From positions 1 through 64,000 of the forward strand of contig NZ_WNXY01000014.1 of assembly GCF_009733815.1 (NCBI RefSeq): a stretch of 64,000 nt of DNA, written 5' to 3'. The notes below the pieces were generated by a model. That model searched no databases and was not told the DNA's origin. It worked only from the letters and a program-made list of their open reading frames with translations. The DNA is from Pseudactinotalea suaedae (GTDB lineage: Bacteria > Actinomycetota > Actinomycetes > Actinomycetales > Beutenbergiaceae). The first letter of the stretch is position 1. Each line of letters opens with the position of its first letter. Of this stretch, positions 36,621 to 56,940 are shown piece by piece. The translations under genes and the position numbers were made by a program.

Positions 36621-37850
36621 ATGGCGGACGGGGTGGCGATCCTCGAGGGTGAGGTCCGTGAGCTGATCCGTCGGCGCGGGCTGGACCCGAGCGCCGATGC
36701 GGAGGCGACCCGGGTCCTGATCGCCGATGCCGTCGCGGACTACGACGAGCGCTCGCTCCTGGGCCGGGTGCCGCGCCTGGTGGATCCGAACGAGGCGACG
36801 AAGGCGCTCCATGACGCCGTCGTCGGCCTCGGTCCGCTCCAGAAGTACCTCGACGACCCGGCGATCGAGGAGATCTGGATCAACGAGCCGGGCAAGATCT
36901 TCGTCGCCCGCTCCGGTCGTGCCGAGCTGACGACGACGATCCTCACCGCCGCCCAGGTCCGTGACCTGGTGGAGCGGATGCTCCGCAGCAGCGGCAGGCG
37001 GCTCGACCTGAGCACGCCGTTCGTGGATGCCTCGTTGCCCACGGGTGAGCGGCTGCACGCGGTCATACCCGATGTCACCCGCACGCACTGGGCCGTCAAC
37101 ATCCGCAAGTACGTGGCGCGCGCCAGCCGGCTGCAGGACCTCGTGGCGCTGGGATCGGTGACCCCGCAGGCGGCCACGTTCCTCGACGCGGCCGTGGTCT
37201 CCGGCCTGAACGTGCTGGTCAGCGGCGCCACCCAGGCCGGGAAGACCACCATGGTCAACGCGTTGGCCGGCAGCATCCCGAGCCACGAGCACGTCATCAC
37301 GTGCGAGGAGGTCTTCGAGCTCAGGCTCGCGGGCAGGGACGTCGTCGCCCTGCAGTGCCGGCAGCCGAATCTTGAAGGTGCCGGCGAGATCCCGTTGCGG
37401 CGGCTCGTCAAGGAGGCCCTCCGGATGCGGCCGGACCGCATCATCATCGGGGAGGTCCGCGAGGCCGAGGCGCTCGACCTCCTGATCGCCCTCAACGCCG
37501 GCAACCCCGGGCTGGCGACCATCCACGCGAACTCCGCCCGCGAGGCCGTCACGAAGATGTGCACGTTACCGCTGCTGGCAGGTGAGAACGTCTCCGACCG
37601 GTTCGTGGTGCCCACCGTGGCGGCTGCGATCGACCTGGTGGTCCATCTCGACCTCGACCGCGACGGCGTCCGCCGCACCCGGGAGATCATCGCCCTCGCG
37701 GGCCGCGTCGAGGAGGGCATGATCGAGACGTCCTCGCTGTTCGAGCGTCGCGAGGAGAACCTCGTCCGCACCGATGGCTACCCACCGCACGAGGACCGGT
37801 TCCGCCGCGCCGGCTACGACCTGCACGCGCTGCTGGCGCACGCGGGCTGA
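36621..37850 (+). CDS. tadA: TadA/CpaF-type secretion ATPase
   Basis: A 409-residue ATPase of the Tad (type IVc pilus) system, which powers assembly of Flp-type pili. Walker A is GATQAGKTT (about 202-210); the Asp box is followed by the Walker B region RPDRIIIGEVREAEALDLL and the His box region NPGLATIHANSAREA. An N-terminal domain of about 90 residues matches CpaF. GGGGAGGGG precedes the ATG. It begins the tad operon and is 4 bp from tadB. There is no TadZ or RcpC gene upstream, the reduced layout usual in actinobacteria. Confidence 0.92.
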   Translation: MADGVAILEGEVRELIRRRGLDPSADAEATRVLIADAVADYDERSLLGRVPRLVDPNEATKALHDAVVGLGPLQKYLDDPAIEEIWINEPGKIFVARSGRAELTTTILTAAQVRDLVERMLRSSGRRLDLSTPFVDASLPTGERLHAVIPDVTRTHWAVNIRKYVARASRLQDLVALGSVTPQAATFLDAAVVSGLNVLVSGATQAGKTTMVNALAGSIPSHEHVITCEEVFELRLAGRDVVALQCRQPNLEGAGEIPLRRLVKEALRMRPDRIIIGEVREAEALDLLIALNAGNPGLATIHANSAREAVTKMCTLPLLAGENVSDRFVVPTVAAAIDLVVHLDLDRDGVRRTREIIALAGRVEEGMIETSSLFERREENLVRTDGYPPHEDRFRRAGYDLHALLAHAG

Positions 37851-37854
37851 GCTG

Positions 37855-38706
37855 ATGGGGACCGCGGCAGGGCTGCTGCTGGGCGCCGGACTGCTCTGCG
37901 TGTGGTGGTCGTTCTGGCCGCGACGCGAGCGCGTCCCCTCACCCTGGACCACCCGCGCCCGCGACATGCTCACCCAGGCGGGCATGCCAGGCGTCTCGGT
38001 CGGGGCGTTCGTCGGGACCTCGATCGGTCTCGGCGCCGCGGTCCTGCTCGTCGGCCTCGCGATCACCGCCACGCCGCCGATCGCGGTCTGCTTCGCGGTC
38101 ATGGCCGGTGCCGCACCGACCGCGTACGTGCGAGCGAAGTCGCGTCGCCGCCGCAATGAGCTGCGTGGTTTGTGGCCCGACGTCGTCGACGACCTCGCCT
38201 CCGGCATCCGCGCCGGGCTGTCGCTGCCGGAGTCGTTGATCGCGCTCGCCGAGCGTGGCCCTGAGCAGCTCCGTGCCGAGTTCACCCAGTTCGCGCGTGA
38301 TTACCGCGCCTCGGGGCGGTTCACCGACTCCCTCGATCTCCTCAAGGCACGGCTCGCGGACCCGGTCGCGGACCGTCTCGTCGAGGCGCTGCGGCTGACC
38401 CGTGACGTCGGCGGCACCGATCTCGGCCGGTTGCTCCGCACGCTCTCGCAGTTCCTGCGCGACGACCTGCGCGCGCGGGGCGAGCTCGAGGCGCGCCAGT
38501 CCTGGACCGTCAACGGTGCACGGCTCGCCGCGGCGGCACCCTGGCTCGTCCTGGCCATGCTCAGCACCCAGTCGAGCACGATCCAGGCGTACAACTCGGC
38601 CACCGGGGTGCTCGTGCTGCTCGTCGGAGCGGTCGCCTCGGCGGTCGCCTATCAGGCGATGGTCCGGCTCGGGCGGCTGCCCGAGGACGTCCGGGTGCTC
38701 CGGTGA
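37855..38706 (+). CDS. tadB: TadB-type pilus assembly membrane protein
   Basis: A 283-residue inner-membrane platform protein. Membrane segments near 3-20, 50-70 and 78-92 precede the T2SSF/GspF domain (about 115-240, LWPDVVDDLASGIRAGLSLPESLIALAERGP), and two helices close it (about 225-275). The ATG at 37855 lies 4 bp after the tadA stop. The stop overlaps the GTG of tadC. With TadC it forms the rotor on which TadA acts. Confidence 0.9.
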   Translation: MGTAAGLLLGAGLLCVWWSFWPRRERVPSPWTTRARDMLTQAGMPGVSVGAFVGTSIGLGAAVLLVGLAITATPPIAVCFAVMAGAAPTAYVRAKSRRRRNELRGLWPDVVDDLASGIRAGLSLPESLIALAERGPEQLRAEFTQFARDYRASGRFTDSLDLLKARLADPVADRLVEALRLTRDVGGTDLGRLLRTLSQFLRDDLRARGELEARQSWTVNGARLAAAAPWLVLAMLSTQSSTIQAYNSATGVLVLLVGAVASAVAYQAMVRLGRLPEDVRVLR

Positions 38707-39650
38707 CCGCGTTGCTCACGCCCGCCGGGCTCACCGGCGCCGGCATCGGTCTGGTCTTCGGCGTCGGCCTCGTCCTGGCGCTCTGGCGTCTCTCAGCCCG
38801 CCGTGTCCGCCTCGTCGACCGGGTTGCCCCGTACCTGCAAGAACGCCCGACGACGTCCCGACTTCTCGTGGACAGCCACGTCATCACACCGTTCCCCACC
38901 GTGGAACGGATCGTGCGCCCCGTGGTTCGCGACGTCGGTCGGCTCCTCGAGCGCCTGGGCAGCGGCGCCCACTCGATCCGACGTCGGCTGGTCCGCGCGG
39001 GCAGCCCCACCACGCTCGAGGCCTTCCGTACCGAGCAGGTGATCTGGGCGACCCTCGGCCTGGCGATCGGGCTGGTGCTGGCGCTGGTGATCGGCGTCGC
39101 ACGCGGTGTCTCGCTGGTCCCGCTGGTCGCACTCGTCGTGCTCTGCGCGGTGGGCGGTGCGCTGCTGCGCGACCAGCTGCTCACCCAGCAGGTGGCACGG
39201 CGCGAGCGGCGCATGATCGCCGAGTTCCCCACCATCGCCGAGCTCCTGGCGCTCGCGGTGGGTGCCGGGGAGTCACCGCTCGCGGCCCTGGAGCGCGTCA
39301 GCCGCACCACCCGCGGCGAGATCTCCACGGAGATCCGCACCACCCTCGCCGATGTCCGCTCCGGGGTGGGTCTCGCCGTCGCGCTCGACGCCATGGCCCG
39401 CCGAACCGAGCTCGCGAGCATCGCGCGCTTCACCGATGGCGTCTCCACCGCCGTCGAGCGAGGCACGCCGCTCGCGGACGTCCTGCGCGCGCAGGCACAG
39501 GACGCCCGCGAGGTCGGTCACCGAGCCCTCATGGAGGAGGGCGGCCGCCGCGAGGTGTTGATGATGATCCCGGTCGTCTTCCTGATGCTGCCGGTCACGA
39601 TCCTGTTCGCCGTGTTCCCGGGCCTGTCCGTGCTCGCGATCACCCTCTGA
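38703..39650 (+). CDS. tadC: TadC-type pilus assembly membrane protein
   Basis: A 315-residue partner of TadB. An N-terminal helix (about 9-28) is followed by a pair of helices (about 118-158), the T2SSF domain (about 170-290, FPTIAELLALAVGAGESPLAALERVS) and a final helix (about 283-310). Its GTG start overlaps the tadB stop by 4 bp. The next gene downstream would be a pilin-type gene, and here it is cut short by the prophage. Confidence 0.9.
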   Translation: MTALLTPAGLTGAGIGLVFGVGLVLALWRLSARRVRLVDRVAPYLQERPTTSRLLVDSHVITPFPTVERIVRPVVRDVGRLLERLGSGAHSIRRRLVRAGSPTTLEAFRTEQVIWATLGLAIGLVLALVIGVARGVSLVPLVALVVLCAVGGALLRDQLLTQQVARRERRMIAEFPTIAELLALAVGAGESPLAALERVSRTTRGEISTEIRTTLADVRSGVGLAVALDAMARRTELASIARFTDGVSTAVERGTPLADVLRAQAQDAREVGHRALMEEGGRREVLMMIPVVFLMLPVTILFAVFPGLSVLAITL

Positions 39651-39672
39651 CCTCCGATGGAAGGACACCGAC

Positions 39673-39771
39673 ATGAAAGCTCTCCGGCGGCGCTGGGCCG
39701 CTCTGTGGGCCGAGCCGGACCGCGGCGACGTACCCGGCTGGGTCATGATCACGCTGATCACTAAGACCTGA
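39673..39771 (+). pseudogene. Truncated small pilin-like gene of the tad locus
   Basis: An ATG at 39673, with AAGGA 8 nt upstream, opens 32 codons: a basic start, then WAEPDRGDVPGWVMITL and a short tail ITKT before TGA. Small Tad-locus proteins of actinobacteria have a charged start and a GDVPGWV-type junction followed by a hydrophobic helix of about 20 residues. Here the helix is lost after five residues. Immediately after this point the DNA changes to prophage. The reading is that phage integration has displaced the 3' half, which should lie beyond the right attachment site, outside the window. Confidence 0.65.
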
Positions 39772-39775
39772 CTTC
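39745..39775. other. Probable attL junction
   Basis: The pilin-like reading frame loses family resemblance after GTCATGATCACGCTGATC (39742-39759). A TGATCA-CGC-TGATCA motif (39746-39760) lies at the break and could contain or flank the crossover core. The matching attR is outside the window, so the exact core cannot be given. Confidence 0.4.
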
Positions 39776-39858
39776 ACCCACACGACCCGAGTAGGTCGGT
39801 CAGATTGTGGCAGCGCGAGCGGGCGCGGGTGTCTGAGCATGGCGGTTCGGCCAATGCA

Positions 39859-39896
39859 GCAGGGCCCCTCACCCTGGAACGGATGAGGGGCCCTGC
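39859..39896. terminator. Hairpin terminator at the left end of the prophage
   Basis: GCAGGGCCCCTCA (39859-39871) pairs perfectly with TGAGGGGCCCTGC (39884-39896), a 13-bp stem with a 12-nt loop. It lies 20 bp after the stop of the minus-strand HTH gene and would end that transcript before it enters the tad operon antisense. Confidence 0.75.
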
Positions 39897-39915
39897 CTGC
39901 TATGCCCGGCGCGTA

Positions 39916-40398
39916 CTATCCGCGCGTGGGCGTCTTGCGATGAGCGATCCACCGCTCAACTGCCGTCCGCAACCGCAACGGTCCGGAGGATGTCTCCACC
40001 ACTGCGACGGGAAAGTCTGCCTTCTCGGCGAACTCCCTCGCACGCTGGCGAGACACACCGGCCAGTGTGGCGATCTCGGCGTAGCCGACGAGATCGGGGA
40101 TGGACGGAGCTTCGGCATCTGCCTGAGCTACTTCCTCAGTGCGGATGTCAAGCCTCACAATGCTGTCCTGGCCGAGGCCAGGAACAGTGCGAGTGATGGT
40201 TGATGCAGCGACCGCAGATGCCTCGGTGGCCGTCTCGGCATCTACTGTGAACGATGCGCCTCCCTTACTGCCGTCGCGGGAGACGCTAACAACGCCTCCA
40301 CGGTCGAGCAGTTTGGTGAGCGCGTCATCGATGTCGTCCTCGGTCAAGGGCCGGGGGGAGACAAAGTCGATGTCGGCGTACCACGTGGCCGTGGTCAT
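39916..40398 (-). CDS. HTH protein following a HicA-like gene; candidate antitoxin
   Basis: A 160-residue protein in two parts. Residues 1-90 form a mixed alpha/beta domain (WYADIDFVSPRPLTEDDIDDAL, a GGVVSVSRDG turn and FTVDAETATEASAVAAS) that recalls the compact strand-helix folds of HicB-like partners. Residues 103-155 form an excisionase/AlpA-like winged HTH (VGYAEIATLAGVSRQRAREFAE..., ending TAVERWIAHR). GAGGAAG precedes the ATG at 40398; an earlier in-frame ATG lacks such a site. It is the second gene after a HicA-like gene from one promoter with a dyad operator, so it is the likely autorepressor and antitoxin. The family is not one I can name with certainty; excisionase is an alternative. 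Confidence 0.65.
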   Translation of the reverse strand: MTTATWYADIDFVSPRPLTEDDIDDALTKLLDRGGVVSVSRDGSKGGASFTVDAETATEASAVAASTITRTVPGLGQDSIVRLDIRTEEVAQADAEAPSIPDLVGYAEIATLAGVSRQRAREFAEKADFPVAVVETSSGPLRLRTAVERWIAHRKTPTRG

Positions 40399-40478
40399 TG
40401 GATTCACTTCCTCTCTCGGTGTTCGGTAGGGAGTCGGTCGGTACCGGTTGCTCATGAGCGGCGTTGGTCCTATGGTTT

Positions 40479-40512
40479 GGTGGTAGCCGCCGTTGGCGCG
40501 ACGGCTACCACC
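40479..40512. terminator. Intercistronic hairpin
   Basis: GGTGGTAGCCG (40479-40489) and CGGCTACCACC (40502-40512) form an 11-bp stem with a 12-nt loop in the gap between the HicA-like and HTH genes. It could partly terminate or process the transcript so that the two proteins are made in unequal amounts. Confidence 0.55.
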
Positions 40513-40537
40513 TCACCACCCGTAGGTCTGATCACAA

Positions 40538-40741
40538 CTAGCCGGTGATCAGGCCCGACCTCTTCAGTCGCTGCAGTGCGTTCTGGAACCAACGATGATC
40601 GCTTGGTGTCCTGTGGAGCGCCACGATCGGCTTCGTCGGATCGGGTGGTATGAGATGCCAACCGTTCTTGGTCGACTTGCTCTCCCAGCCCTGTGACTCT
40701 GCCAGTGCGACAAGGTCCTCGGGTCGCTGACCCTTGGCCAT
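40538..40741 (-). CDS. HicA-like putative RNA-binding toxin
   Basis: A 67-residue protein with the dsRBD-like HicA pattern: an N-terminal helix (RPEDLVALAESQGWE), a beta hairpin carrying the catalytic-type His29 (KNGWHLIPPD), a strand (PIVALHRTPSDHRW) and a C-terminal helix (QNALQRLKRSGL). HicA toxins are ribosome-independent mRNA interferases using this His. The ATG at 40741 has AAAGGAGGT 8 nt upstream, one of the strongest Shine-Dalgarno sites in the window. It is the first gene of a two-gene unit with its own sigma-70-like promoter. Toxin activity is inferred from the fold; a phage regulatory role is possible. Confidence 0.7.
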   Translation of the reverse strand: MAKGQRPEDLVALAESQGWESKSTKNGWHLIPPDPTKPIVALHRTPSDHRWFQNALQRLKRSGLITG

Positions 40742-40803
40742 GAGGGGGTACCTCCTTTCGTCCCTATTGAGTTTCGCCAAACCGGTTGCCTGGCTTATGC
40801 ACT

Positions 40804-40834
40804 AGTATACACCAGCCCCTTGTCACCGACAAGG
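40804..40834 (-). promoter_or_regulatory. Promoter and dyad operator of the HicA-like module
   Basis: On the minus strand a -35 TTGTCG (40832-40827) and a -10 TATACT (40809-40804) are exactly 17 bp apart. The -35 lies inside a perfect inverted repeat, CCTTGTC-ACC-GACAAGG (40818-40834 on the plus strand). This is a good sigma-A promoter with an operator placed to block it, typical of autoregulated toxin-antitoxin or moron genes. Confidence 0.7.
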
Positions 40835-40855
40835 CCGGGATGGCATTTCTACGTC

Positions 40856-41122
40856 CTATTGCTGACTCGGACCCCGGCGGCGACGTACAACGTCCTCGGC
40901 GGGGATCCAGACTCCCCGGAAGGGTGAACGTGGGTCGAGCTGCTCGACCAGCACCGCCGCACGGGTCCACGCTTCAGCGACGGTGTCGACGTACTTCTCC
41001 CCGGACTCCCACACCAGGCGGGCGACGATCGGGATCGGTGGCCAGCCAGCTTCGGTGAAGCGCGTCGGTACGGGCAACCCGTTGAGCAGCTGCTCCTGAT
41101 CGTCGTACCAGGCTCCCACCAC
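40856..41122 (-). CDS. Small conserved-looking phage protein
   Basis: About 88 residues, soluble, with LRAVVGAWYDDQEQLLN..., a Pro-rich turn (EAGWPPIPIVARLVW), ESGEKYVDTVAEAWTRAAVLVEQLD and FRGVWIPAEDVVRRRR. The start is uncertain: GTG at 41122 or 41119 lies just downstream of a terminator hairpin; a longer in-frame reading up to 41269 would run across that hairpin and into the previous gene. I do not recognise the family. Its place, after the lysis genes and before the HicA-like module, is that of a late accessory (moron) gene. Confidence 0.5.
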   Translation of the reverse strand: MVGAWYDDQEQLLNGLPVPTRFTEAGWPPIPIVARLVWESGEKYVDTVAEAWTRAAVLVEQLDPRSPFRGVWIPAEDVVRRRRGPSQQ

Positions 41123-41156
41123 GGCACGGAGCGTCGCACCCGGGTACGACGAATGT

Positions 41157-41190
41157 GCCCCGCCCGACCCTGTGATGGGTCGAGCGGGGC
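41157..41190. terminator. Hairpin terminator after the lysis cluster
   Basis: GCCCCGCCCGACCC (41157-41170) pairs with GGGTCGAGCGGGGC (41177-41190), 13 of 14 positions, around TGTGAT. It lies 22 bp after the stop of the coiled-coil membrane protein and probably ends the late operon. Confidence 0.75.
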
Positions 41191-41211
41191 TCAGAATCGT
41201 GGCGGTGCGGT

Positions 41212-41517
41212 TCAGGCCTTCTCGAGGGTCTCGATGCGCGCCTGGAGTTCGCCGCGTTCGGTCTTCCACTCCTCACGAGCGGTCTTGAACTCGGCGGCGA
41301 GCGCCTGCCGGGCTTTCCGCTCGACGTCGAGCTCCTCCTCCAGTCGAGAGATGGCGTTCTTGTAGATCCCCTCCGCCCGCAAGAACGCACCCTCCTCGAC
41401 CGAGACCTGAGCCACCTTCACCGACGCCCGGTTCGCGTACCGGGCAGCGACCCACGAGCCGGCCACGGTGACGACGGCGCCGATCAGCAGCTGCCACCAG
41501 GCCAGTGCGCCGCTCAC
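41212..41517 (-). CDS. TM plus coiled-coil phage protein (spanin/holin-partner-like)
   Basis: A 101-residue protein with one N-terminal membrane segment (about 5-25, ALAWWQLLIGAVVTVAGSWV) and a long charged coiled coil (about 45-101, ISRLEEELDVERKARQALAAEFKT and more). GTG at 41517 overlaps the preceding stop as GTGA. It lies within the lysis cluster. The shape (inner-membrane anchor plus coiled coil) is that of phage lysis accessory proteins, but no specific family is recognised. Confidence 0.7.
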   Translation of the reverse strand: MSGALAWWQLLIGAVVTVAGSWVAARYANRASVKVAQVSVEEGAFLRAEGIYKNAISRLEEELDVERKARQALAAEFKTAREEWKTERGELQARIETLEKA

Positions 41518-41957
41518 CCGCCGCCGTCCGGACGTTGACGCAGCACCTCGCCCGCCGACACCATCCCCGAGACGATGATGGTGGCGCCGGCGATCGCAGC
41601 GAACGGCAAGGCCAGGAAGTACCCGCGGGGCGATCCGCCGGTGGCCCAGCTGATCAGGTAGATCAGGGTCCACCCCGACGCCACGGCAGCGAGCATGCCG
41701 AACGCCCACCCGTCCTTGCGGAAAAACGCCCCGACGATGCCGACCAGGCCTGCAAGGAACCAGCCCACGCCGATCGCCCAGAACGGGATTCGGAACTCCA
41801 GCAGGAACGACAAGGAGCGTTCGGTTCCGGGTGAGGGCGTGGGGACGAGGTAGGCCAGTCCGATGAAGATGAACAGCAGACCTTTGAACAGCAGGTACGT
41901 CCCGCGCCGGCCGTTGATGCGGGGCCACAGCCGCCGGTTGGTGTGGTCGCCTCGCAC
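41514..41957 (-). CDS. Four-TM phage membrane protein
   Basis: A 147-residue protein with a basic N-terminus (about 20 residues) and four hydrophobic segments (about 22-40, 55-82, 84-104, 112-132). It lies between the holin candidate and the coiled-coil protein, 3 bp after the holin stop, and overlaps the next start by 4 bp. Proteins of this size and topology are common beside endolysins in actinobacteriophages and may act as a second holin or anti-holin. Confidence 0.7.
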   Translation of the reverse strand: MRGDHTNRRLWPRINGRRGTYLLFKGLLFIFIGLAYLVPTPSPGTERSLSFLLEFRIPFWAIGVGWFLAGLVGIVGAFFRKDGWAFGMLAAVASGWTLIYLISWATGGSPRGYFLALPFAAIAGATIIVSGMVSAGEVLRQRPDGGG

Positions 41958-41960
41958 GAC

Positions 41961-42467
41961 TCAGACCGGCTCTGCGCCGTTAGCGGCGTGCCGGCCGGCC
42001 CCGTCGGTGAAGGTGCCCTCGACGACGCGGCCGCGCCCCACGGTCTCGGAGGTGATGCCGGCCTTCTTCCACGCCTTGTCGTAGGCGAGCCAGGACACCA
42101 CGAGGCCGGCGACGAACGTCAGGAGCGCGGTGCCGGCGTCGTAGGTAGCGCCCTCGCTGGCGGTGCGGAGCAGCTCGCCCAGCGCGGCCGTGAGGGCGTT
42201 CAGGCCGGCCAGCAGCACGACCTTGGTGCGGGACTGCGTCAGCCGCGTGGTGACGAACGCGACGAACGCGGGCAGCACCAGCGAGACCAGCAGGTTGAGC
42301 CCTGCGATCCAGTCCAGCCCGAAGGTGATCGCCGGCGTCGGTGCGAGCTCGGCACCGGTCGAGGCGTGCGCGGGGTCGGCCAGCAGGGCTAGCGTGAACG
42401 CCAGGCCGATCAGGATCGCGAGCAGCAGCGTCGCGACCTTCCAGAGGATGCGGGTTGCGGTTTGCAT
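41961..42467 (-). CDS. Putative holin
   Basis: A 168-residue membrane protein with a signal-like first helix (about 8-32, VATLLLAILIGLAFTLALLA), further helices near 50-78 and 83-100, and one at about 112-128. It has a polar C-terminal tail of about 35 residues. ATG at 42467 starts just after the endolysin stop. Position next to the endolysin and helix content support a pore-forming holin; with three or four helices, class assignment is open. Confidence 0.7.
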   Translation of the reverse strand: MQTATRILWKVATLLLAILIGLAFTLALLADPAHASTGAELAPTPAITFGLDWIAGLNLLVSLVLPAFVAFVTTRLTQSRTKVVLLAGLNALTAALGELLRTASEGATYDAGTALLTFVAGLVVSWLAYDKAWKKAGITSETVGRGRVVEGTFTDGAGRHAANGAEPV

Positions 42468-42475
42468 GGGAGTAC

Positions 42476-43306
42476 TCACTTTCCGGTGCGGATGATCCGC
42501 ACCACGTTGGGTGCCTGGGAGTTGAGCCACTTCGCCTCGCCGGCGAGCATCAGCGGACCGCGGATGCCGTCGATTGCGCCGAGGTAGTAGCGCCGCGAGC
42601 GCAGGACCCGCTGCAGCGCCTTCATCTGGGCCTTGTCGTGGGCCTTGGCGGTGCCGGCTGGGCCGTCGTACTCGGCGACGTTGGACGCCTGCAGCCACTT
42701 CCGCATCCGGTCCTTGAGGTAGCGGGTGCGGTAACCCGCCGCGAACAGCAGCGTCGCCCACGCCTTGTCCAGGTTCGAGGCCGTCGAGCTGGTCGACATC
42801 GCCGCGTAGGGGTAGTCGCGGGAGGAGGTGACTCCGGGGATGGTGAGCCCGCCGCTGGGCGCCTGCTTGGGCGGCGTGCTGGCCTTCGGCTTCGTGTAGA
42901 CGCGCTGGCCGTGGTAGATCTCGGCCCAGCCCTGGTAGTCGCAGCCGACGCCTGCCCAGGCCCGCTCGAGGTCCTTGATGCGGACCTTCGCCACGGTGCC
43001 GCCAGGGCCGGCGCTGGTGCTGATGCAGTACCCGCCGCCCACGCTGATGGCGACGTGGTCGTAGGAGGCGTTCTTGCCGTAGTGCAGGTCGAAGAACACC
43101 GGCACCCCGGCGGGGGCGTTGTAGTCGCCGGCGTGCCAGCCGCCGGCGCCCTGGGATGCGATCCGGGCCAGGCGCGCGGAGGCGTACCGCGCCGGGAACC
43201 CGAAGTGCCCGCGGGTGAACTTCTCGCACATGCCGGCGAAGTTGGCGCCCTTGCCGATGGCGGCGGTAGCGCGGCGAACCCGCTCGGCGACGGTGGGCAG
43301 CGCCAT
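42476..43306 (-). CDS. Endolysin with Cys/His hydrolase domain
   Basis: A 276-residue lysin. The N-terminal catalytic domain (about 1-135) has Cys27 (GMCEKF) and His84 (YDHVAISVGGGYC), the arrangement of CHAP or NlpC/P60-type peptidoglycan amidase/endopeptidases. A Pro/Ser linker (KPKASTPPKQAPSGG) joins a C-terminal domain (about 155-276) with the peptidoglycan-binding-like pattern LQRVLRSRRYYLGAIDGIRG. There is no signal peptide, so release depends on the holin genes that follow. Its ATG overlaps the stop of a 55-residue gene (TGATG). Confidence 0.85.
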   Translation of the reverse strand: MALPTVAERVRRATAAIGKGANFAGMCEKFTRGHFGFPARYASARLARIASQGAGGWHAGDYNAPAGVPVFFDLHYGKNASYDHVAISVGGGYCISTSAGPGGTVAKVRIKDLERAWAGVGCDYQGWAEIYHGQRVYTKPKASTPPKQAPSGGLTIPGVTSSRDYPYAAMSTSSTASNLDKAWATLLFAAGYRTRYLKDRMRKWLQASNVAEYDGPAGTAKAHDKAQMKALQRVLRSRRYYLGAIDGIRGPLMLAGEAKWLNSQAPNVVRIIRTGK

Positions 43307-43473
43307 CAGCGTGTCTCGGCGTCGGCGCGGTCCAGCTCGTCCAGGTCAGGGGCGTCGGGGTCGTCAGCGACTCCCTCGATCAGCTCCTCCGGGAACGGCG
43401 GGATCTGCTCAGCGGGGACGGCAGCGACTTCCGGGGCCTGGTCGTCCTCGATGAGCTCGAGTGGGGTGGACAT
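43306..43473 (-). CDS. Small acidic phage protein
   Basis: A 55-residue, strongly acidic protein (MSTPLELIEDDQAPEVAAVP..., ending DELDRADAETR). GGAGG lies 7 nt before the ATG at 43473 and the stop overlaps the endolysin start, so it is translationally coupled. No family recognised; probably unstructured. Confidence 0.65.
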   Translation of the reverse strand: MSTPLELIEDDQAPEVAAVPAEQIPPFPEELIEGVADDPDAPDLDELDRADAETR

Positions 43474-43524
43474 GGCAGAGCCTCCGATCTGGCCGAGGGC
43501 CATCGGTTCGTGTGGAGCTGAGGG

Positions 43525-45354
43525 CTAGGCGGGTGTCGGGTTCGACTGGCCCGCGGTGTACTGGGTGCTGCCGACGGCGTAGGCGGCGAAGTACTGCCAG
43601 TCGTCGTTGCCGCTGCTCGAGCGCACCGCCCATGGAGCGGTGAGCTCGACGCCGCGGTCGGTGGTGACCTTGATGGCGCCGGCGGCGATCGGGAACCGGA
43701 CGTAGTACTCGCCGGCCGGTGCGGTGTAGGTGTGGACGTTGGAACCGATCTGCACCCGGACGACGTCGGACATCGTCAGGTAGGTGCCCACCTCCACCTC
43801 GTGCGTGACCGCAGAGCGGCCCGTGCCGGAGCGCTGCGCCATGAACTGTGTCTGCCCGCCGGTGATCGTCGGGGACGCGGTACGGGCGCGGGAGGACACC
43901 ACGACGGCGTCCCGCACGATCTGCGGTGCCGAGCCACGCAACCACTTGGCCGCCTCCCATGCCGAGACGGCGGCGTAGGCGCCGCCTGTCGCAGCGCTGA
44001 CGCCGATGTGGTGCGTCTCGGAGTAGTCGTTCCAGGAGGAGACCTGCGCCACGTCGTTCGGGCCCGCGAGCGCCCGCATTCGAGCCCACGCCGCACGGAG
44101 CGCCTGGGTGCCCTTGGACTCGTCGAACTCGCGATGCTTGGGCCGCTGCCACCCACGGAAGATGGTGAGCATGGCCCGCTCGCCGGCGGTGTGAGCCTGG
44201 GTGATGTAGCTGGCCGCTGACGTGCTCGAGATGATGCCGGGGTCAGCGCCGCCCAGACCCCAGCGGCCGGTCACCTCCTGCGGGTTCGCGGAGTTGCGGA
44301 ACGCGGTGGCGTTGGCCGGGTTGCCGAAGCAGTGCCAGGTCCGCACGTTCTTGCCGTAGGTGTTGCGCAGCCGGTTGATCACGTCGTCCCACCACCCTGC
44401 GGCGGCAGCGGCCGAGCCGAGGGCGCCGAAGTTCTCCGGGCGGTAGGTCGAGACGACGTAGTCGCCCTCGACCCGCAGCGCGCATGCCTTGGACAGCAGC
44501 GTGTTGAGCGCGGTCGCGGCGTTGGCGGAGGTGCCCTGCCCGGTGCCGCCGTTGCCGTCCAGCATCGGGATCGCGTAGAAGCCCGGGAACGACCGGACAC
44601 CGCCGATGGTCTCTGACGCGGCGTCGAACATCCACTCGGCAACGTTCCAGTTGTTCCCTGAGCTGCCGAGGATGTCGCACATGAACCCGTGGATGCCGAA
44701 CCGGCGGGCCAGGACGATGTCCTCGCGGATCGCGTTGTACTGCCAGGTCGGCGAGGTCGGCCACGGCGCGTTCTGCCGGATCGGCATATCCCGCAGCAGC
44801 CCACCGTAGGCGGCGTGCGCACCGGACTCGCCGTTCAGGGCCAGGTAGCCGGTGTTGTAGTAGTTGGTGCCGGCGGTGTTGCCACCGGAGCCGTTGACCA
44901 CCAGCGAGGGCGGGTAGGGCGGGAAGTAGTGCGCCCAGTACCGGGGGGAGGTGTACTCGGGCATCCGGAACCACAGCGTCGCCGTGGGCTCGGGCAGCAC
45001 CACGGTCGGCGGTTCCGCCAGGACACTTCCCGAGGTCGCCGAGCCTGCCGAGTAGCCGGAGCGGGTGGCCGTCACCGTGACGCTGATCAGCCGACCCTCG
45101 TCGGCCACGGCAACCTCATAGGAGGGGGCCGTGGCGCCGGCGATGAGTGAACCTGACCGGCGCCACTGATAGGCGAACGAGAGCCCCGTCACCGACCACT
45201 CGCCGGTGCTGGCGACCAGGGTCCGCCCGGTCTCCGGGATGCCGGAGATCGAGGGTGCCGAGGTGTTGAGGATCGCCTCGCCTGCTCCGCCGGTCGAGGG
45301 CGTCAACGTGAGCGCCTGCCCGTCGACCACGACCACGGACTTGATGGTGGGCAT
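43525..45354 (-). CDS. Tail protein with Ig-like and GH71-like glucanase domains
   Basis: A 609-residue tail-tip or fibre protein. An N-terminal Ig-like module (about 33-112: PETGRTLVAS...YQWRRSGSLIAGATAPSYEV...ISVTVTATRSGYS) joins a TIM-barrel-like domain (about 125-470). The latter has the marks of glycoside hydrolase family 71, alpha-1,3-glucanases: YWAHYFPPYPPS, an IREDIVLARRFGIHGFMCDI block, YVVSTYRPENFG, and VSSWNDYSETHHIG near the end. A beta-rich C-terminus (about 480-609) follows. It probably binds and cuts a host surface glucan. Start and upstream stop overlap (TGATG). Identification is by motif; activity is inferred. Confidence 0.75.
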   Translation of the reverse strand: MPTIKSVVVVDGQALTLTPSTGGAGEAILNTSAPSISGIPETGRTLVASTGEWSVTGLSFAYQWRRSGSLIAGATAPSYEVAVADEGRLISVTVTATRSGYSAGSATSGSVLAEPPTVVLPEPTATLWFRMPEYTSPRYWAHYFPPYPPSLVVNGSGGNTAGTNYYNTGYLALNGESGAHAAYGGLLRDMPIRQNAPWPTSPTWQYNAIREDIVLARRFGIHGFMCDILGSSGNNWNVAEWMFDAASETIGGVRSFPGFYAIPMLDGNGGTGQGTSANAATALNTLLSKACALRVEGDYVVSTYRPENFGALGSAAAAAGWWDDVINRLRNTYGKNVRTWHCFGNPANATAFRNSANPQEVTGRWGLGGADPGIISSTSAASYITQAHTAGERAMLTIFRGWQRPKHREFDESKGTQALRAAWARMRALAGPNDVAQVSSWNDYSETHHIGVSAATGGAYAAVSAWEAAKWLRGSAPQIVRDAVVVSSRARTASPTITGGQTQFMAQRSGTGRSAVTHEVEVGTYLTMSDVVRVQIGSNVHTYTAPAGEYYVRFPIAAGAIKVTTDRGVELTAPWAVRSSSGNDDWQYFAAYAVGSTQYTAGQSNPTPA

Positions 45355-47252
45355 CAGACCCCCTGCAGGACGATCGCCTGCGCGCGCGGGTTCGTGGCCG
45401 CCGACCAGACGATGTCGCGGGTACCGGTCGCGCCGGCGTCGACGTCCTGGACGTAGGACTCGATGACGGTGATCGAGGAGACCCCGAGCTCACCGCCGAT
45501 GGTCTGGTCGACGTGCGTCATCCCAGCGGGCGGCGCGTTGACCGTGACGTTGGAGGAGCTCGAGCCTTCCTTCCAACCGACGAACAGCATGATCGCGCCG
45601 GCCTTCGTCACCGCCAGGTCGGCGGTGCGCCGGCCGTTGCTGATCGAGGTCCCGAGGTAGTCCGTCACGGCGACGTTGACCGGCGCCGCGGGGTTGACGT
45701 AGCGGAACACGAGGAGCTGACCGGCCTTGGCGGTCGCGGTCCCTGGGGTGTGAGCGAACACGTACTCGTCCGGCTCGATCCCGAGCGACCCGACCACGTG
45801 GCCGAAGATGCCGCAGACGCGGTTGGCTGCCGAACCGGTACCCGGCCATGCCGGGCCGAGCCGGGCCCAGGTACCGGACCCGGACTGCGCTGAGAAGTCG
45901 GCGGTGGCCGCGTTGTGACCAGACCCGAGGATCGCGACGAGGTAGTCGCCCTCCTGCACGCTGCCGCCGCGGACGAGGGTGACGTCCGAGGAGGTGTTGG
46001 CCGACTCGAAGACGTCGGCCAGGCCCACGTACATCAGGTCCGCGGTGACCGAGATCGGCGTGGAGAACGCGACACCGCTGGTGTGGCCGGCCTTGATCGC
46101 GGTGACCTTGACCCGGACCTTGTTGGTGCCCAGGTCCGCCGAGGTGAGCACGTAGTCATCGCTCGTGGCGCCGCTGATCGCCGAGCCGTCACGCTGCCAC
46201 TCGTAGGTGTAGGAGTCGGCGGTCGGGTCCCACGAGCCGGTGGTCGTGCTGACCGTCTCACCGACCTCGAACGTGCCCGAGATGACCGGGATGGCCGTGT
46301 TGGTGACCGACGGACCGGTGGTCTTGAGCGCGGCCACGTCGGTGAGCAGCTCGGCGATACGGTCGGCGACCGTCGTCGAGCCGTCATAGTCGATGTCCCC
46401 GGCGTCGGCCGCCTCGACGGTGACCGGCACGACGGCCTTGCCGGGTCCGACGCCGAGCAGGTCACCCTCCGCTGCCGTGGCCTGTGTCGATCGCACGTAG
46501 GTCGTGAGATCGGTGGGGATGCGATCCGCGCCGAGCACGCCGGTGTTGATCTTGCTCGCACTCAAGTTCGGGATCTGCGCGGCGTCGAAGGTGCCGGCCG
46601 TGACCTTCCCAGCGGGGATGTCGGGGATCGCAGCCACTGGCAGCTGGGCGCCGTTCTCGGCCGTGATCTGGTTGGCGGGGTGGCTGTGTGTGGTCGCCGC
46701 AGCGCCGATGTTGTCCGGGGTGAGCGGCACGTTGCCGGTGGTGTCAGGTGCGACGCCACCAACCGCGGTGACCGTGCCCTCTCCACCAGGGCCGGAACTG
46801 ACGTCACCCCACACGACGTCCCGGTCGACGTCGGACGCCTTCACCAGAGCCTGCTGAGTGGTGCCACCAGGTGGCAGCGGTCCCGCTGCCAGCGCCGCGT
46901 TCTCAGCTGCCTGCTGTGCCAGCAGCGCGGCCGCGAGCGCCTGCTGGGCCGCGGCGCGCGCCTGCTGGGCGGCCAAGATCCCACCCTCGAAAGACTGCAG
47001 GGTGGCGCGGGCGCCGTTCGCTGCGACGACGTCCACCGTGAAGATGTCGTCCGGGGTGTTGAAGGAGGGCACGGCGAACTGCTCGGTGACCTTGAGGACC
47101 GCGCCGGGCACCGGCACCCCAGAGGGCGCCTCGGTGATCTCCAGCGGGGTGTTGGTGCCTTGAAGGCAGACGGTGACCGTCTGGCCGCGCAGAGCTTCCA
47201 GGAGCTCACCGGTTGCGGCGTCGCGGACCTGGGTGTGCAGGAACAGAACCAT
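45354..47252 (-). CDS. Tail fibre / minor tail protein with Ig-like domain
   Basis: A 632-residue fibre. An N-terminal attachment domain (about 1-85) is followed by an Ala/Gln coiled coil (about 90-125, AAQQARAAAQQALAAALLAQ) and a repetitive shaft with fibre-type motifs (TPDNIGAAATTHSHPANQIT, KVTAGTFDAAQIPNLSASKINTG; about 130-260). An Ig-like module (about 325-405: SGTFEVGETVSTTTGSW...YEWQRDGSAISGATSDDY) and a C-terminal jelly-roll-like domain (about 415-632) complete it. The HSHPA and D/K repeats resemble trimeric tail fibres. Its stop overlaps the next tail gene. Confidence 0.78.
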   Translation of the reverse strand: MVLFLHTQVRDAATGELLEALRGQTVTVCLQGTNTPLEITEAPSGVPVPGAVLKVTEQFAVPSFNTPDDIFTVDVVAANGARATLQSFEGGILAAQQARAAAQQALAAALLAQQAAENAALAAGPLPPGGTTQQALVKASDVDRDVVWGDVSSGPGGEGTVTAVGGVAPDTTGNVPLTPDNIGAAATTHSHPANQITAENGAQLPVAAIPDIPAGKVTAGTFDAAQIPNLSASKINTGVLGADRIPTDLTTYVRSTQATAAEGDLLGVGPGKAVVPVTVEAADAGDIDYDGSTTVADRIAELLTDVAALKTTGPSVTNTAIPVISGTFEVGETVSTTTGSWDPTADSYTYEWQRDGSAISGATSDDYVLTSADLGTNKVRVKVTAIKAGHTSGVAFSTPISVTADLMYVGLADVFESANTSSDVTLVRGGSVQEGDYLVAILGSGHNAATADFSAQSGSGTWARLGPAWPGTGSAANRVCGIFGHVVGSLGIEPDEYVFAHTPGTATAKAGQLLVFRYVNPAAPVNVAVTDYLGTSISNGRRTADLAVTKAGAIMLFVGWKEGSSSSNVTVNAPPAGMTHVDQTIGGELGVSSITVIESYVQDVDAGATGTRDIVWSAATNPRAQAIVLQGV

Positions 47253-47264
47253 GGGGATGCCCTC

Positions 47265-48320
47265 TCAGTTTCCGAGCCAGGTCGCCCACAGGCGCCAGTT
47301 TTGAATGCTGACGTTCGCGGTCGCGATGATCCGCACGCCCAGCTGGGTTCCACCGCGCACCCACCGGGTGTCGGTCATCGACAGATACGCCGTTCGGCTT
47401 CCGCCCCCGTACTCGACCGTGCAGATCGGGACCTGGGAGGACGGCGCCATGCCGGATCCGGCCCAGACTCCGAGGTGACCATGGGCCAGCAGCGCCGCCG
47501 TGGAAGCGAACGCGACCCGGAACCCGATCGCATACAAGCCCGCCTGCGGCAGGTTCAGCCGCGTCGGAGCGGTCTGGGTGTTGCCGACGACGTGGGACAT
47601 ACCCACGCCCACCACATCGCCCTCGGTCTCGGTGCTCGCGGCGGCCGCACCCACCAGCCACGACCCAGGTGTCGTGACCTGGTTGTAGGCGCCGTCACGT
47701 GCGATGAGGATGCTCGGACGAGTGCCGCGCTGGTCGCTCAGGTCGTAGGACACCCAGGCGGCGCTGGTGTTGCCGGCCATCTGGCGGACGTGCAGGACAT
47801 TCCCGATCGTGACGGTCGAGCCGACCTGGGTCAGGTACTGGCGCACGATGTCGTCACGAGCGACGGCGCCGCCGTTGGTCGACCACACACGGGCGTCGAT
47901 CAGGTTCTGCACCTGCGCCTGGTTCGCGCTCACGAGCGCGAGAGCGAGCGGCTGGTCGTCCTCGGTGCCTGGGGTGGTGGCCCGAGCCGGCAGAGTGATG
48001 CCGGTCTGGGGGATGTTGACGAACGTGATCGTCGACGCCTTGGTCGCACCCCAGACCCGCTTGAGCACGATCAGGAACCAGCGACTTCCCGAGGAGACCA
48101 CGGGCAGCTGCACATCGGTCGTGCTGACGGTGTCGATCACACCGCACCCGATGGCTACGCCAGGGGCGATCCGGACGGTCCGGGCCTGAGCTGTGTTGAC
48201 CGAGGCCGCGAGGTCGCCGGGGCCTGCCACGGTGTACCGGGCGCCCATCGCGCCGGCGTACCGCGCCCAGTCGGTCTCGTCGACGGTGCCGGCGTAGCCG
48301 ATGGATGAGGTGACGGGCAT
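47265..48320 (-). CDS. Minor tail protein
   Basis: A 351-residue soluble protein beginning MPVTSSIGYAGTVDETDWARYAG, with an N-terminal domain typical of actinophage minor tail proteins (residues 1-110: WARYAGAMGARYTVAGPGDL, RIAPGVAIGCGVID) and a beta-sandwich C-terminus (about 230-351). The ATG at 48320 lies one base after the previous stop. It sits between the Gp37-like tail protein and the fibre, so it likely belongs to the baseplate or tail tip. Confidence 0.75.
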   Translation of the reverse strand: MPVTSSIGYAGTVDETDWARYAGAMGARYTVAGPGDLAASVNTAQARTVRIAPGVAIGCGVIDTVSTTDVQLPVVSSGSRWFLIVLKRVWGATKASTITFVNIPQTGITLPARATTPGTEDDQPLALALVSANQAQVQNLIDARVWSTNGGAVARDDIVRQYLTQVGSTVTIGNVLHVRQMAGNTSAAWVSYDLSDQRGTRPSILIARDGAYNQVTTPGSWLVGAAAASTETEGDVVGVGMSHVVGNTQTAPTRLNLPQAGLYAIGFRVAFASTAALLAHGHLGVWAGSGMAPSSQVPICTVEYGGGSRTAYLSMTDTRWVRGGTQLGVRIIATANVSIQNWRLWATWLGN

Positions 48321-48321
48321 G

Positions 48322-49455
48322 TCAGGTTCCCTTCTGCAGCCTGCGGAGCGAGGCGATAGCGCGGCCGAGGACCGTGGCCAACTTCTTGTCGTTGTCGTCG
48401 CTGCGATCGCCCACGACGGGTGTCCACCGCGGGACGGCGTTGTCCTTGCTCCAGGAGAGAGTCGCTTCGCGGAGCACGTCGGTGATCGGTGCTGCACCTG
48501 GCTGGGGTTCGATCTGAACCAGATCGCCCACGTGCACACCGGTGCCGCCGTATCGGAAGATCGACGTCTCGAGCAGCTGCACTGAGAGCCCGTACTTCAG
48601 TCCGGCCTCCGCGAGCGCGGCGTCGCCGCGGGCGTCCATGAGCGCGTTCCGGTTCGGGTCGTCGGCCTTGATGTCACGGGCGTCGATGTACCCCTCGATG
48701 ACGTCACCCCACGCTGTCTCCAGCGTCGAGCTCACCCGGGAGCGGAACACTCGGGCCGTGCCCTCACCCGGGCCGCCGACCACGACACGGGTCATCTCCG
48801 GCGGCCGCCGCGACCAGGACATCCCTGCGACCGTTCCCGCCGCCTCGGACAGGTTCAGCGGGAACACGGCCGGGGTGTAGCAGTCGACCCGCAGCCCGGC
48901 CCCGCTCTGCCGCACCGTGACACCGATGCCCGCCTGGTCCACGAGCGGGAACAGCACGTCGTTGAGCCGGTCCATCCGGGACTGCACCGTGATCGTTGCG
49001 CCGCGACCCTGGGTCGGGACCACCGTCACCGGCAGCCCGAGCCGGGATGAGTTCGCCGCCACCAGCTGCTTCACCACGGTCTCCGCGGGCCCGGTGCGCA
49101 CGTCGTACTCCGAGGTCTGCGACCCGAGCCCCGAGCCGGGCACCTGCCAGCCCAGCATCCGCTGCAGCAGCCGCCAGTCGTCCTGCACCTGGATCGTGTA
49201 CTTCCGTGCGCCGATGCGGCCCTCGCAGGAGACCAGCCGGCACGGGCCACTCAGCACGACCTCATCCCGGTGGCGGATCACCACGCGGGCGCCAGGCTCG
49301 AGCAGCAGCGGCGTCGAGACGGCCGCCTCTGACACGACCAGCTGGCCTGAGGGCTGCTGGTTGTGCCGGGGCGTGGCCGTGACCGACAGCGGGTCACCGA
49401 CCCACCCGAGTCGCTCGAACGTCTTGGAGTAGACGCGGATGTCGATCTCGTCCAC
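48322..49455 (-). CDS. Siphovirus ReqiPepy6 Gp37-like tail protein
   Basis: A 377-residue protein matching the Gp37/Gp68 (ReqiPepy6-type) family, which forms the hub or tail-tip of many actinophages. Recognisable features are an N-terminal VYSKTFERLGWVGDPLSVTAT strand pattern, YTIQVQDDWRLLQRMLGWQVPG, GRGATITVQSRMDRLNDVLFPL and VVVGGPGEGTARVF. The C-terminal RWTPVVGDRS then helical tail is typical. It follows the distal tail gene directly. Confidence 0.82.
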   Translation of the reverse strand: MDEIDIRVYSKTFERLGWVGDPLSVTATPRHNQQPSGQLVVSEAAVSTPLLLEPGARVVIRHRDEVVLSGPCRLVSCEGRIGARKYTIQVQDDWRLLQRMLGWQVPGSGLGSQTSEYDVRTGPAETVVKQLVAANSSRLGLPVTVVPTQGRGATITVQSRMDRLNDVLFPLVDQAGIGVTVRQSGAGLRVDCYTPAVFPLNLSEAAGTVAGMSWSRRPPEMTRVVVGGPGEGTARVFRSRVSSTLETAWGDVIEGYIDARDIKADDPNRNALMDARGDAALAEAGLKYGLSVQLLETSIFRYGGTGVHVGDLVQIEPQPGAAPITDVLREATLSWSKDNAVPRWTPVVGDRSDDNDKKLATVLGRAIASLRRLQKGT

Positions 49456-49456
49456 G

Positions 49457-50443
49457 TCAGCCCCAAGCCCGCTCGTGCCGCGGCGTCAGCAGCACCCGCA
49501 CGGTCCCGGTGCCGACCATGCCGACGTCGAGGGTCACGTTGGCTCCCTTCGGGATCTCGGCGAACGCCGTCTCCCCGCCCAGGTCCTTGGTCCGGTCGAC
49601 GCCGCCGGCGAGCGCCGCAGCGTGGATCGCCTGCACCTGCTGCACCGCGTCCAGCCCGGTCAGGTCCGGGGTGTCGACCAGCAGGGCCCGCCGGTCCTCA
49701 CGGCTGGAGTCCACGACGAGCGACTTGCCCTCAGCGACGGCGAACGGGATGACGATGTGCTTGCCCTCGAAGCCGCCGTAGGCGGAGTCGAACGGCCCGT
49801 CGTAGGCCCACACCGGTGCACCCGCCACGTCACCGGGATTCGGGATCGTCGCCGTGCTCAGCGTCGAGGCCGAGGAGATGCGCCACAGCTCCGGGGTGGC
49901 CGGGTCAGCGAACCGGGCACCGTCGGCAGCGCCGAACACCCGCACGATCGGGTCCGAGGTCCAGAACGGCTGATCCGCCACCAGGTAGGCCGCCTGCTGT
50001 GTCCACTCCATCAACCCCGGGGCGAGATCCCAGACCGTGTCATCGCGCTCCAGCCGGCACCGCAACGACCGGGCGCCACGGTCTGGGGTGATCGCCCGCC
50101 ACGTGCCCTGCTCCTCGTAGCTGAGCGACTGCCAGAACTCAGCTTCGACGTCCAGGTGCTCCTGCGTGTCGGCTCCGGCCAGGACCAGGAACGGCCAGAA
50201 CACCTCGCGCTCATTCACCCGGTGCCCGCGATAGCGGGAGCCTGGCAGCCCGGGAGCCTCGTCGGCGTACCTGGTCGACGGCGGCTTACCCAAGCCGCGG
50301 GTCCCGGCCAGCCGCACCGGTGACAGCTCGTTCGTCAGCGACCACGTCCGTGAACCGTCAGGTGAGGTCCAGGTGAGCTCGATCCCAGGCCACGGGTTCT
50401 CCGGGACGACCACCGGCTGCGTGGATGCCAGTACGAGGTTCAC
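49457..50443 (-). CDS. Distal tail protein (Dit-like)
   Basis: A 328-residue tail protein encoded right after the tape measure, where siphoviruses place the distal tail component. Blocks such as ELTWTSPDGSRTWSLTNE, YRGHRVNEREVFWPFLVLAG, EFWQSLSYEEQGTWRAITPD and GGFEGKHIVIPFAV fit the phage tail family of actinophages. The GTG at 50443 overlaps the tape-measure stop (GTGA) and has GGAGG 6 nt upstream; an in-frame reading further upstream lies inside the tape-measure gene. Confidence 0.78.
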   Translation of the reverse strand: MNLVLASTQPVVVPENPWPGIELTWTSPDGSRTWSLTNELSPVRLAGTRGLGKPPSTRYADEAPGLPGSRYRGHRVNEREVFWPFLVLAGADTQEHLDVEAEFWQSLSYEEQGTWRAITPDRGARSLRCRLERDDTVWDLAPGLMEWTQQAAYLVADQPFWTSDPIVRVFGAADGARFADPATPELWRISSASTLSTATIPNPGDVAGAPVWAYDGPFDSAYGGFEGKHIVIPFAVAEGKSLVVDSSREDRRALLVDTPDLTGLDAVQQVQAIHAAALAGGVDRTKDLGGETAFAEIPKGANVTLDVGMVGTGTVRVLLTPRHERAWG

Positions 50444-53400: not shown

Positions 53401-53481
53401 GGTGGCGAGGTCGAACCCGGCTCCCTCCCAGGAGGACTCGAGCCGAATGCGAACGTCACGCTGGGCGCCGGTGGTTGCCAA
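50440..53481 (-). CDS. Tail tape measure protein
   Basis: A 1013-residue tape measure, the longest gene of the phage. A charged helical start (about 30-75) is followed by a TP901-type tape-measure core (about 90-420: AWAGVRKTTDG, LSADQAATSIAQLMNIMGT, GGGVVSRVLQDIYS). Hydrophobic stretches occur at about 78-98, 430-455 and 480-500, with Ala-rich coils toward residue 900. At roughly 1.5 angstrom per residue it predicts a tail near 150 nm. It follows the G/GT chaperone region by 24 bp and overlaps the distal tail gene. Confidence 0.92.
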   Translation of the reverse strand: MATTGAQRDVRIRLESSWEGAGFDLATRAVTKYETDYRRMAQMQMRAEAEMAEAAKKRAAEIEAANKRQMLAMEGAGRVILGLAGATAAGLVLATAAAIDWESAWAGVRKTTDGSSEQMSALEGELRQLARTLPSTHTEIAAVAEAAGQLGVKREDVAEFTRVMIDLGETTDLSADQAATSIAQLMNIMGTAGDDVDELGATIVALGNAGASTESQILLMAQRIAGAGKLVGATEGEVLATASALASMGVSAELGGGVVSRVLQDIYSAVQSGGEEVEGFARIAGMSAQEFSDAWREDPIRALASFADGLNGVEASGGNVITTLTDLGIKSSEEQRILLQLMANTDLLTDSLDLQAQAWNENTALIDEANQRYATTEARLQVARNQITDAAIDIGGTFLPAVADATKVVGQFAAGFSALDAPGQRFVTILGAGVTGLGLLTGGALMAVPKLKELTATVSALRAGSSLLGRSVGNVANLLMGPWGAALAAAGVALAIYTQRQGEAKQRTDALRASLDEMGKITDDTARTLNEAFATTKVDWLTDDIRLMGTSIREIMDEVGVSAEDARGYIEGNADAVARVNAQMDAYREQGGTFTMHLAQANALNDFLDEHSDALVEATDQQEYLAEATGGTAQSQEEAAAATAAATAETEALTAANEELLASYAEADGAFIDLLGGYQSVIDKNTEVAQATADSTESSEDSWQDYYDGFSVSLADYLAELDAMVAAQQAWEANMLLLSGRVSQGVLDHLATLGPEGAPLVAALVDASDDELARLEAVYGQQADNATAAFAENLAAAGPILGQIGAQLGAEAAAEAASAVASGEKTIQDVINEYSLQGVTFDVDADTGPADAALQDFINRRRHLTIQARVNADPNYSPATSQNMIYRAGGGPITGPGTSTSDSIPLMASNNEHMWSAAETAAAGGHAAVAALRASALAGTLRSMPTGAGTVSAPSTSAGGAPGHGSGASYQFDLQVDAAPGYAMEVARLFATEIKTSLGDAMAAAGVSGAEVL

Positions 53482-53505
53482 GACTCACCCCCGGGGCTTC
53501 TGACG

Positions 53506-55065: not shown

Positions 55066-55076
55066 CGGTGGTCTCC

Positions 55077-56544: not shown

Positions 56545-56548
56545 AGCG

Positions 56549-56901: not shown

Positions 56902-56940
56902 GCTGACCTCCTCAGGTCATCGGGTCGTGCTGGTGGTGCG

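Follow-up and report, generated by a model that had tools for sequence, protein, structure and literature searches.

A prophage inside the Tad operon of Pseudactinotalea suaedae and an integrase lineage recurring in Tad and comM genes

The Tad pilus operon of Pseudactinotalea suaedae is interrupted by a 40.7-kb prophage, which sits inside a small gene following tadC and carries a large serine integrase whose relatives are repeatedly found beside Tad genes and, less often, comM. The insertion itself is a known kind of event; what is new is that members of a single integrase lineage keep turning up in Tad genes and comM. The best explanation, to which we assign a probability of about 55%, is that this phage lineage repeatedly disables Tad-dependent DNA uptake.

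Prophages located in competence genes provide important genomic evidence of mobile elements fighting transformation, a process that, to our knowledge, has been little studied in Actinomycetota. In Micrococcus luteus, deletions in either tad cluster abolished both surface Flp complexes and transformation, with a more than 100-fold drop for one tadB, and the authors state that polar effects of the deletions cannot be excluded (PMC4322843). Croucher et al. (2016) proposed that elements gain by blocking transformation, and described the disruption of comK, comYC, comFA, and comM (PMC4774983).

The interrupted Tad operon

The window, i.e., the whole 64,000-nucleotide stretch under analysis, covers the opening 64 kb of contig C4, which is 104,459 bases long, and the features located on this contig are compiled in Table 1. 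The tadA, tadB, and tadC genes are all open and overlapping, in agreement with the original prediction that they are intact and coupled; the listed ATG of tadB overlaps tadA, and the real start may be further in. The next frame is preceded by a purine-rich site, GGAAGGA, consistent with the good Shine-Dalgarno sequence noted previously. This frame was also said to stop after 32 codons exactly where phage DNA begins; the length is correct, but the final residues TKT and the stop codon are already encoded by phage DNA. In the congener G001, the unsplit gene is 60 codons long, and three tadE/tadG-like genes come after it; the gene is likewise unsplit in the congener G002. The missing 3' half and further tad genes, which had been anticipated beyond the right end of the prophage, are present after C4:80472, and the downstream genes are the same as in G001: the first is probably tadE-like, judging by likeness, while the second and third match Pfam TadE and Tad (TadE/G-like) at scores slightly under the curated cut-offs. 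Neither of these two prophage-free relatives has a 32-codon gene, and the right prophage end joins the 3' half of the gene rather than unrelated DNA. A naturally short 32-codon gene was ruled out, since both congeners carry a longer one and the 3' half lies at the distant prophage end, and a frameshift or assembly error was ruled out by the presence of like split genes in eight other genomes. As a separate observation, tadA of G002 (L027:2318-6316) is reduced to approximately its first third, and tadB and tadC are not recognizable upstream of the unsplit gene.

The identity of the target as a pilin-like gene is supported only in part: the prophage does split a small Tad-operon gene, but the designation as pilin is doubtful. 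Scans of the 60-residue protein returned nothing from Pfam at E ≤ 1 or from NCBIfam at E ≤ 0.1. The G/XXXXEY processing site, by which the M. luteus report defines Flp pilins (PMC4322843), is absent as well: counted from the glycine of its RGDVPGW stretch, position +5 is not E. It is small, is encoded between tadC and tadE (in the G001 order), and contains one hydrophobic stretch, judged by eye. The interrupted gene therefore sits in the place of flp but does not encode a canonical or recognized Flp pilin, nor is it a proven pilin, and it is referred to here as the flp-position gene. Of the order's 396 genomes, 308 have a match to its product (E ≤ 0.001). Elsewhere in the host genome, a DUF4244 gene is open on contig C15, its product carrying such a processing site (GMATAEYA), and a ComEC-family gene is present.

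Table 1. Features of the Tad operon and the prophage on contig C4; plain coordinates are positions in the window
Feature	Coordinates	Strand	Evidence or remark
tadA, Tad pilus motor ATPase, intact	36621..37850	+	Pfam T2SSE 3e-40; NCBIfam TadA family TIGR03819 2e-77, under the model's own cut-off
tadB, inner-membrane platform protein	37774..38706	+	ORF list; tblastn matches in tad loci of relatives
tadC, platform protein	38703..39650	+	Pfam T2SSF 2.7e-15; 4-base overlap with tadB
5' half of the 60-codon flp-position gene, running into phage DNA	39673..39771	+	Stop after 32 codons
attL core TCACGCTGAT	39749..39758	+	attR copy at C4:80463-80472
Prophage, part inside the window	39759..64000	.	Whole prophage about C4:39759-80462
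Phage gene adjoining attL, candidate excisionase/DNA-binding	39916..40455	-	Weak; PHROG 597 1.5e-5, PHROG 66 2.1e-5
Tape measure protein	50440..53481	-	PHROG 13339 2.5e-138
Major capsid protein	56985..58241	-	PHROG 10 2.8e-71
Head maturation protease	58295..59086	-	PHROG 80 2.3e-45
Portal protein	59070..60362	-	PHROG 12 2.2e-99
Terminase large subunit, listed start maybe too early	60543..62153	-	PHROG 9 7.5e-104
Terminase small subunit	62068..62583	-	PHROG 83 2.6e-16
Large serine integrase, near the right end	C4:77971-79431		PF00239 1.6e-26, PF07508 4e-11, PF13408 9.4e-6
3' half of the flp-position gene	C4:80473 to about C4:80569		Beyond the window; match to the G001 continuation

The prophage and its attachment core

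The G001 sequence matches the window at 83% up to position 39761 and diverges thereafter, and its continuation matches the same contig 40.7 kb away, at C4:80463-81883 (82%). The right attachment site, which had been predicted to lie beyond the window and to repeat a core, was located in this way through the unsplit gene of G001. The core TCACGCTGAT, 10 bp in length, occurs exactly twice in the 104-kb contig, at the two junctions, and is absent from the other strand, with 40,714 bases between the core starts. A repeat search of the junction against the rest of the contig revealed nothing longer than 12 bases, and the 12-base matches were not the ends, which were missed because the core has only 10 bases. 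Joining the flanks in silico yields a 60-codon frame in which 48 of 60 residues are identical to G001, and excision is thus predicted to restore the flp-position gene exactly.

The element looks like a complete siphovirus-like prophage, given the presence of terminase, portal, protease, capsid, tape measure, repressor-like, and integrase genes between its ends, as identified in a scan of ten proteins. The integrase combines resolvase catalytic (PF00239), Recombinase (PF07508), and zinc-ribbon (PF13408) domains, the set of a large serine integrase. A 39,759-base IMG/VR contig encoding a 100% identical integrase is probably this same prophage, and a megablast search of window positions 39650-64000 against phage records gave no match. 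Among the tail genes, positions 43525-45354 of the window encode a 609-residue protein that may resemble a glycoside hydrolase, and two convergent phage genes at C4:75225-77510 (L006:15225-17510) may resemble those for a three-Cys-motif partner protein and a DUF5131 protein.

The same insertion in other genomes of the order

With the integrase as query, 12 of the 396 genomes of the order, including that of P. suaedae, matched at E ≤ 1e-60. In nine of them (G000, G016, G218, G008, G318, G246, G173, G250, and G337), the flp-position gene is split and the integrase is near one half, with 4 kb between integrase and gene half in G250 and with both halves and the integrase at three contig ends in G337. 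Three of the 3' halves gave weak matches when whole genomes were searched (G246, E 0.02; G318, E 0.10; G250, E 0.19) and were accepted because a TadE match comes directly after them. Where both halves lie on one contig, the insert ranges from about 7.6 kb (G008, in which the integrase match falls in two frames) to about 49 kb (G173). The integrase of G318 and G246 is located beside the 5' half, implying that the element or its integrase end is inverted. Two other genomes (G302 and G140) have a whole flp-position gene and a split tadA, with 33 and 54 kb between the pieces; in the remaining one (G166), neither gene is split and the integrase lies at another place. More than 20 genomes among the matches listed show a separate match ending at or near window position 39761, and the DNA around the attachment site is well conserved.

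Several additional inserts in the flp-position gene were observed and left out of the counts. In G237 (L062:7284-19978), 12.6 kb of DNA carrying a distant serine recombinase (29% identity) interrupts the gene at a position shifted by a few codons, and in G345 an insert of roughly 27 kb occupies another position, the 5' stub being recognized by eye. In G227 (L064:6800-7000), a 5' stub precedes a pair of attachment-site-like sequences with a spacing of some 40 bases, an arrangement that suggests tandem or repeated integration; no lineage integrase was detected in this genome at E ≤ 1e-60, and no 3' half within the 76 kb examined. With regard to tadA, its 5' part is missing from G016 (L042:45-1330), where a distant serine recombinase (27% identity) lies just upstream in addition to the flp-position prophage, and in G231:C77 (L065:3711-4148) the tadA match ends at about residue 89 and a flp-like frame begins within about 60 bases.

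Targets of the integrase lineage across genera

A scan of genome contigs with a single integrase protein confirmed nothing, and an alignment of 12 integrases, picked by likeness and not by target, was used instead against GTDB species genomes, resulting in 27 loci. The gene adjoining the integrase, as a rule examined only in the half beside it, is the flp-position gene in 11 loci, tadA in 6 (one of them, L116, being of the other tadA type), a DUF4244-type pilin gene in 1, comM/YifB in 2, and another or unassigned gene in 7. Two assignments were made indirectly (L095 through G337 and L109 through G250), 5 of the 27 loci belong to genomes already among the 12, and three are on one Luteimicrobium album contig. 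When both searches are pooled, the 32 genomes comprise 16 with the flp-position gene as target, 6 with tadA (at two sites), 1 with the DUF4244-type pilin gene, 2 with comM, and 7 with others. Tad genes are thus the target in 23 of the 32 genomes; 12 of these 23 cases come from named contigs alone, where as a rule only the integrase-side half was examined. The hosts include Ruania, Kocuria, Glutamicibacter, Microbacterium, Brevibacterium, Cryobacterium, Brachybacterium, and Cellulosimicrobium.

Of the seven other cases, three involve genes for an MFS efflux protein, an Exo_endo_phos-family protein (exonuclease III-like, by eye), and a DUF6459 protein, respectively; a MinD-like gene accounts for two, both in Aeromicrobium, and the last two (L115 and G166) have no assigned target. 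The MinD-like target in Aeromicrobium (L107 and L112) was considered as tadZ, but profile scans gave no support and it was counted as non-Tad. The DUF4244-type fragment was likened to intact DUF4244 proteins, the fragment itself having no profile match. At tadA, one integrase group has its junction at CGGACGT (residues PDV) and the other, as printed, near CTGCAC (residues LH), a few codons apart. The Luteimicrobium album contig carries three copies of the lineage integrase (L102, L103, and L114), two of which adjoin a tadA half, and these copies may represent prophages in tandem that span the start of the contig.

In a quick tree built from 98 integrases with midpoint rooting, those targeting the flp-position gene are scattered over the deeper branches of the lineage, the two tadA groups and the DUF4244 group are nested within it, and both comM rows fall within one weakly supported group. 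A single clade of all tadA-targeting integrases was rejected (AU p 2.9e-72, on the quick tree and with the group named after seeing it). The nine target classes require at least 8 changes on the tree, and Tad versus non-Tad requires at least 4; the rows used for both the AU test and these counts had been pruned further, with a removal list of 22 distant rows (21 present). Left out of the 98-row tree were L028, L119, L125, L146, L152, and L102 (duplicates or a tandem copy), L187, L188, and rows shorter than 300 residues, L146 having been called a copy of the G302 integrase by end sequence only. A set of 71 viral loci, most of which end at the integrase or have no Tad match, was used for the tree and for examples only.

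Interpretation of the target pattern

In the proposed mechanism, a temperate siphovirus used the large serine integrase that it encodes to enter a conserved part of the small gene that lies between tadC and tadE. The Tad operon is thereby cut into a left part, retaining tadABC and a dead 5' stub, and a right part, in which the 3' half and the tadE/tadG-like genes are separated from any upstream element that drives the operon. In this host, pili and DNA uptake or transformation would be expected to be lost, because the tad clusters of M. luteus are needed for these functions and the host possesses ComEC-family and DUF4244 genes. Through Tad-dependent uptake, a cell can acquire prophage-free DNA and, by recombining with it, remove an integrated element, and the bias in targets would most likely reflect what the phage gains by stopping that uptake. 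The sequences show the insertion, its ends, the restored frame, and the target pattern; the selective reason is our inference, and the Tad and comM genes hit by the lineage are presumed to serve transformation in their hosts. Evidence against this explanation comes from the 7 of 32 genomes that carry the integrase outside Tad and com genes, and conserved coding sequence alone could attract integrases.

This last consideration underlies the principal alternative, according to which the lineage merely uses strongly conserved coding sequence in dispensable genes and pilus loss is a side effect that brings the phage no benefit. The conservation of the attachment-site DNA, manifest in the matches ending at or near position 39761 in more than 20 genomes among those listed, fits such a neutral landing site, as does the splitting of the gene in 9 of 396 genomes, which implies that it is dispensable at least for a time. 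However, conservation alone does not predict that sister integrases would have moved to other genes of the same system, namely tadA at two sites, the DUF4244-type pilin gene, and comM. Once the flp-position gene is set aside, eight target classes are resolved, of which three are Tad genes and one is comM. The binomial probability of at least 3 Tad genes among 8 is 3.5e-6 with approximately 14 Tad genes in 3500, or 4.2e-4 at 2% per target, values that are post hoc, use estimated gene numbers, exclude the two unassigned targets, and serve as a guide only. On balance, a neutral site is considered unlikely.

Active lysogeny, in which excision under some condition would restore the gene and switch the pilus on before reintegration or loss, is more doubtful still. 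It would be compatible with the 60-codon frame restored in silico, with the intact appearance of the integrase and structural genes and the open host tad genes on both sides, and with the contig breaks at the ends of the G337 prophage, which could arise from a mixed population. On the other hand, 7 of 15 loci with a prophage in the flp-position gene show gross breakage of tadABC, compared with 7 of 42 prophage-free loci (Fisher p 0.034), a difference that becomes 6 of 14 (p 0.067) without the doubtful L098, whose gene pieces are on opposite strands. Gross breakage was defined as tadABC coverage below 70%, a stop, or a frame change; the 42 controls comprise G001, G002, and 40 loci hand-picked from the listed better-scoring flp-position matches, all on the + strand, and the count left out G227 and loci whose tadABC side is outside the fetched stretch (e.g., L099 and L100). 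Breakage beside the prophages thus weakly favors lasting loss rather than a switch. The two-frame integrase match of G008 also argues against regulated excision, which was not reported for this lineage in the literature searched. Superinfection exclusion, whereby removal of the Tad pilus would deny a receptor to competing phages, fits the disruption of any pilus gene, tadA and the pilin included, but leaves the comM insertions unexplained and is highly improbable.

The disabling of Tad-dependent DNA uptake may be extended into a broader proposal, put forward tentatively and at somewhat less than even odds: that a serine integrase lineage has specialized in disarming the Tad-pilus competence of Actinomycetota, retargeting among the flp-position gene, tadA (twice), the DUF4244-type pilin gene, and comM, with target choice selected for function and not for sequence. 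If true, Tad-based transformation would be a main enemy of prophages in these bacteria. A Tad-targeting lineage would extend the conflict between mobile elements and transformation to another pilus class and to Actinomycetota, and such prophages would flag species that are transformable now or were so recently. In addition, related integrases with different, readable sites would be useful for studying how serine integrases change targets.

Relation to known prophage insertions

Among the comYC prophages, an integrase lineage likewise places the prophage inside a gene coding for the competence pilus (PMC4774983). The cases described in that study resemble the present ones in that orthologous, non-identical sites are used across species and comM is a target in both; they differ in that comG-type systems, regulators, or comM are affected there, whereas here the pilus is Tad and one lineage strikes several genes. 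The whole words "Tad", "Flp", "Micrococcus", and "Actinobacteria" are absent from its main text. Prophage SpST71A, which is inserted in comGA of Staphylococcus pseudintermedius, splits the gene for a pilus motor ATPase, like the relatives that target tadA, but in another pilus system and species, and mainly in one clone (PMC7029219). The Listeria phage in comK (PMC7029219) and SP-beta in spsM (PMC4191935) interrupt a host gene that precise excision restores; such gene-restoring excision has been demonstrated in those systems and is predicted from sequence here. The comM gene is also described as often inactivated in Acinetobacter baumannii (PMC11472951). No report of prophages or integrases in Tad genes was found among the papers listed in searches of the open-licence literature, and a word search of the main text of an actinobacterial prophage survey returned neither "tad" nor "pilus" (PMC10023795).

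Attachment-site arms and the phage Maja

The nearest integrase from an isolated phage is gp29 of Arthrobacter phage Maja (MK279899), which is 54.9% identical over 92%, the next among the matches listed reaching about 33%. Unlike the prophage described here, Maja is a free phage, and with no bacterial site annotated in the stretch of the record considered, its site is a predicted one only. In the comparison of six chosen ends, Maja displays the same paired attP arms, GGTGA...TCACC, as found here, the left one at the integrase stop codon. Among the nine flp-site prophages, both outer arms (left GGTGA, right TCACC) are exact in four (G000, G016, G008, and G318), neither is present in G218, G173, and G250, and the right arm TCACC is exact in six.
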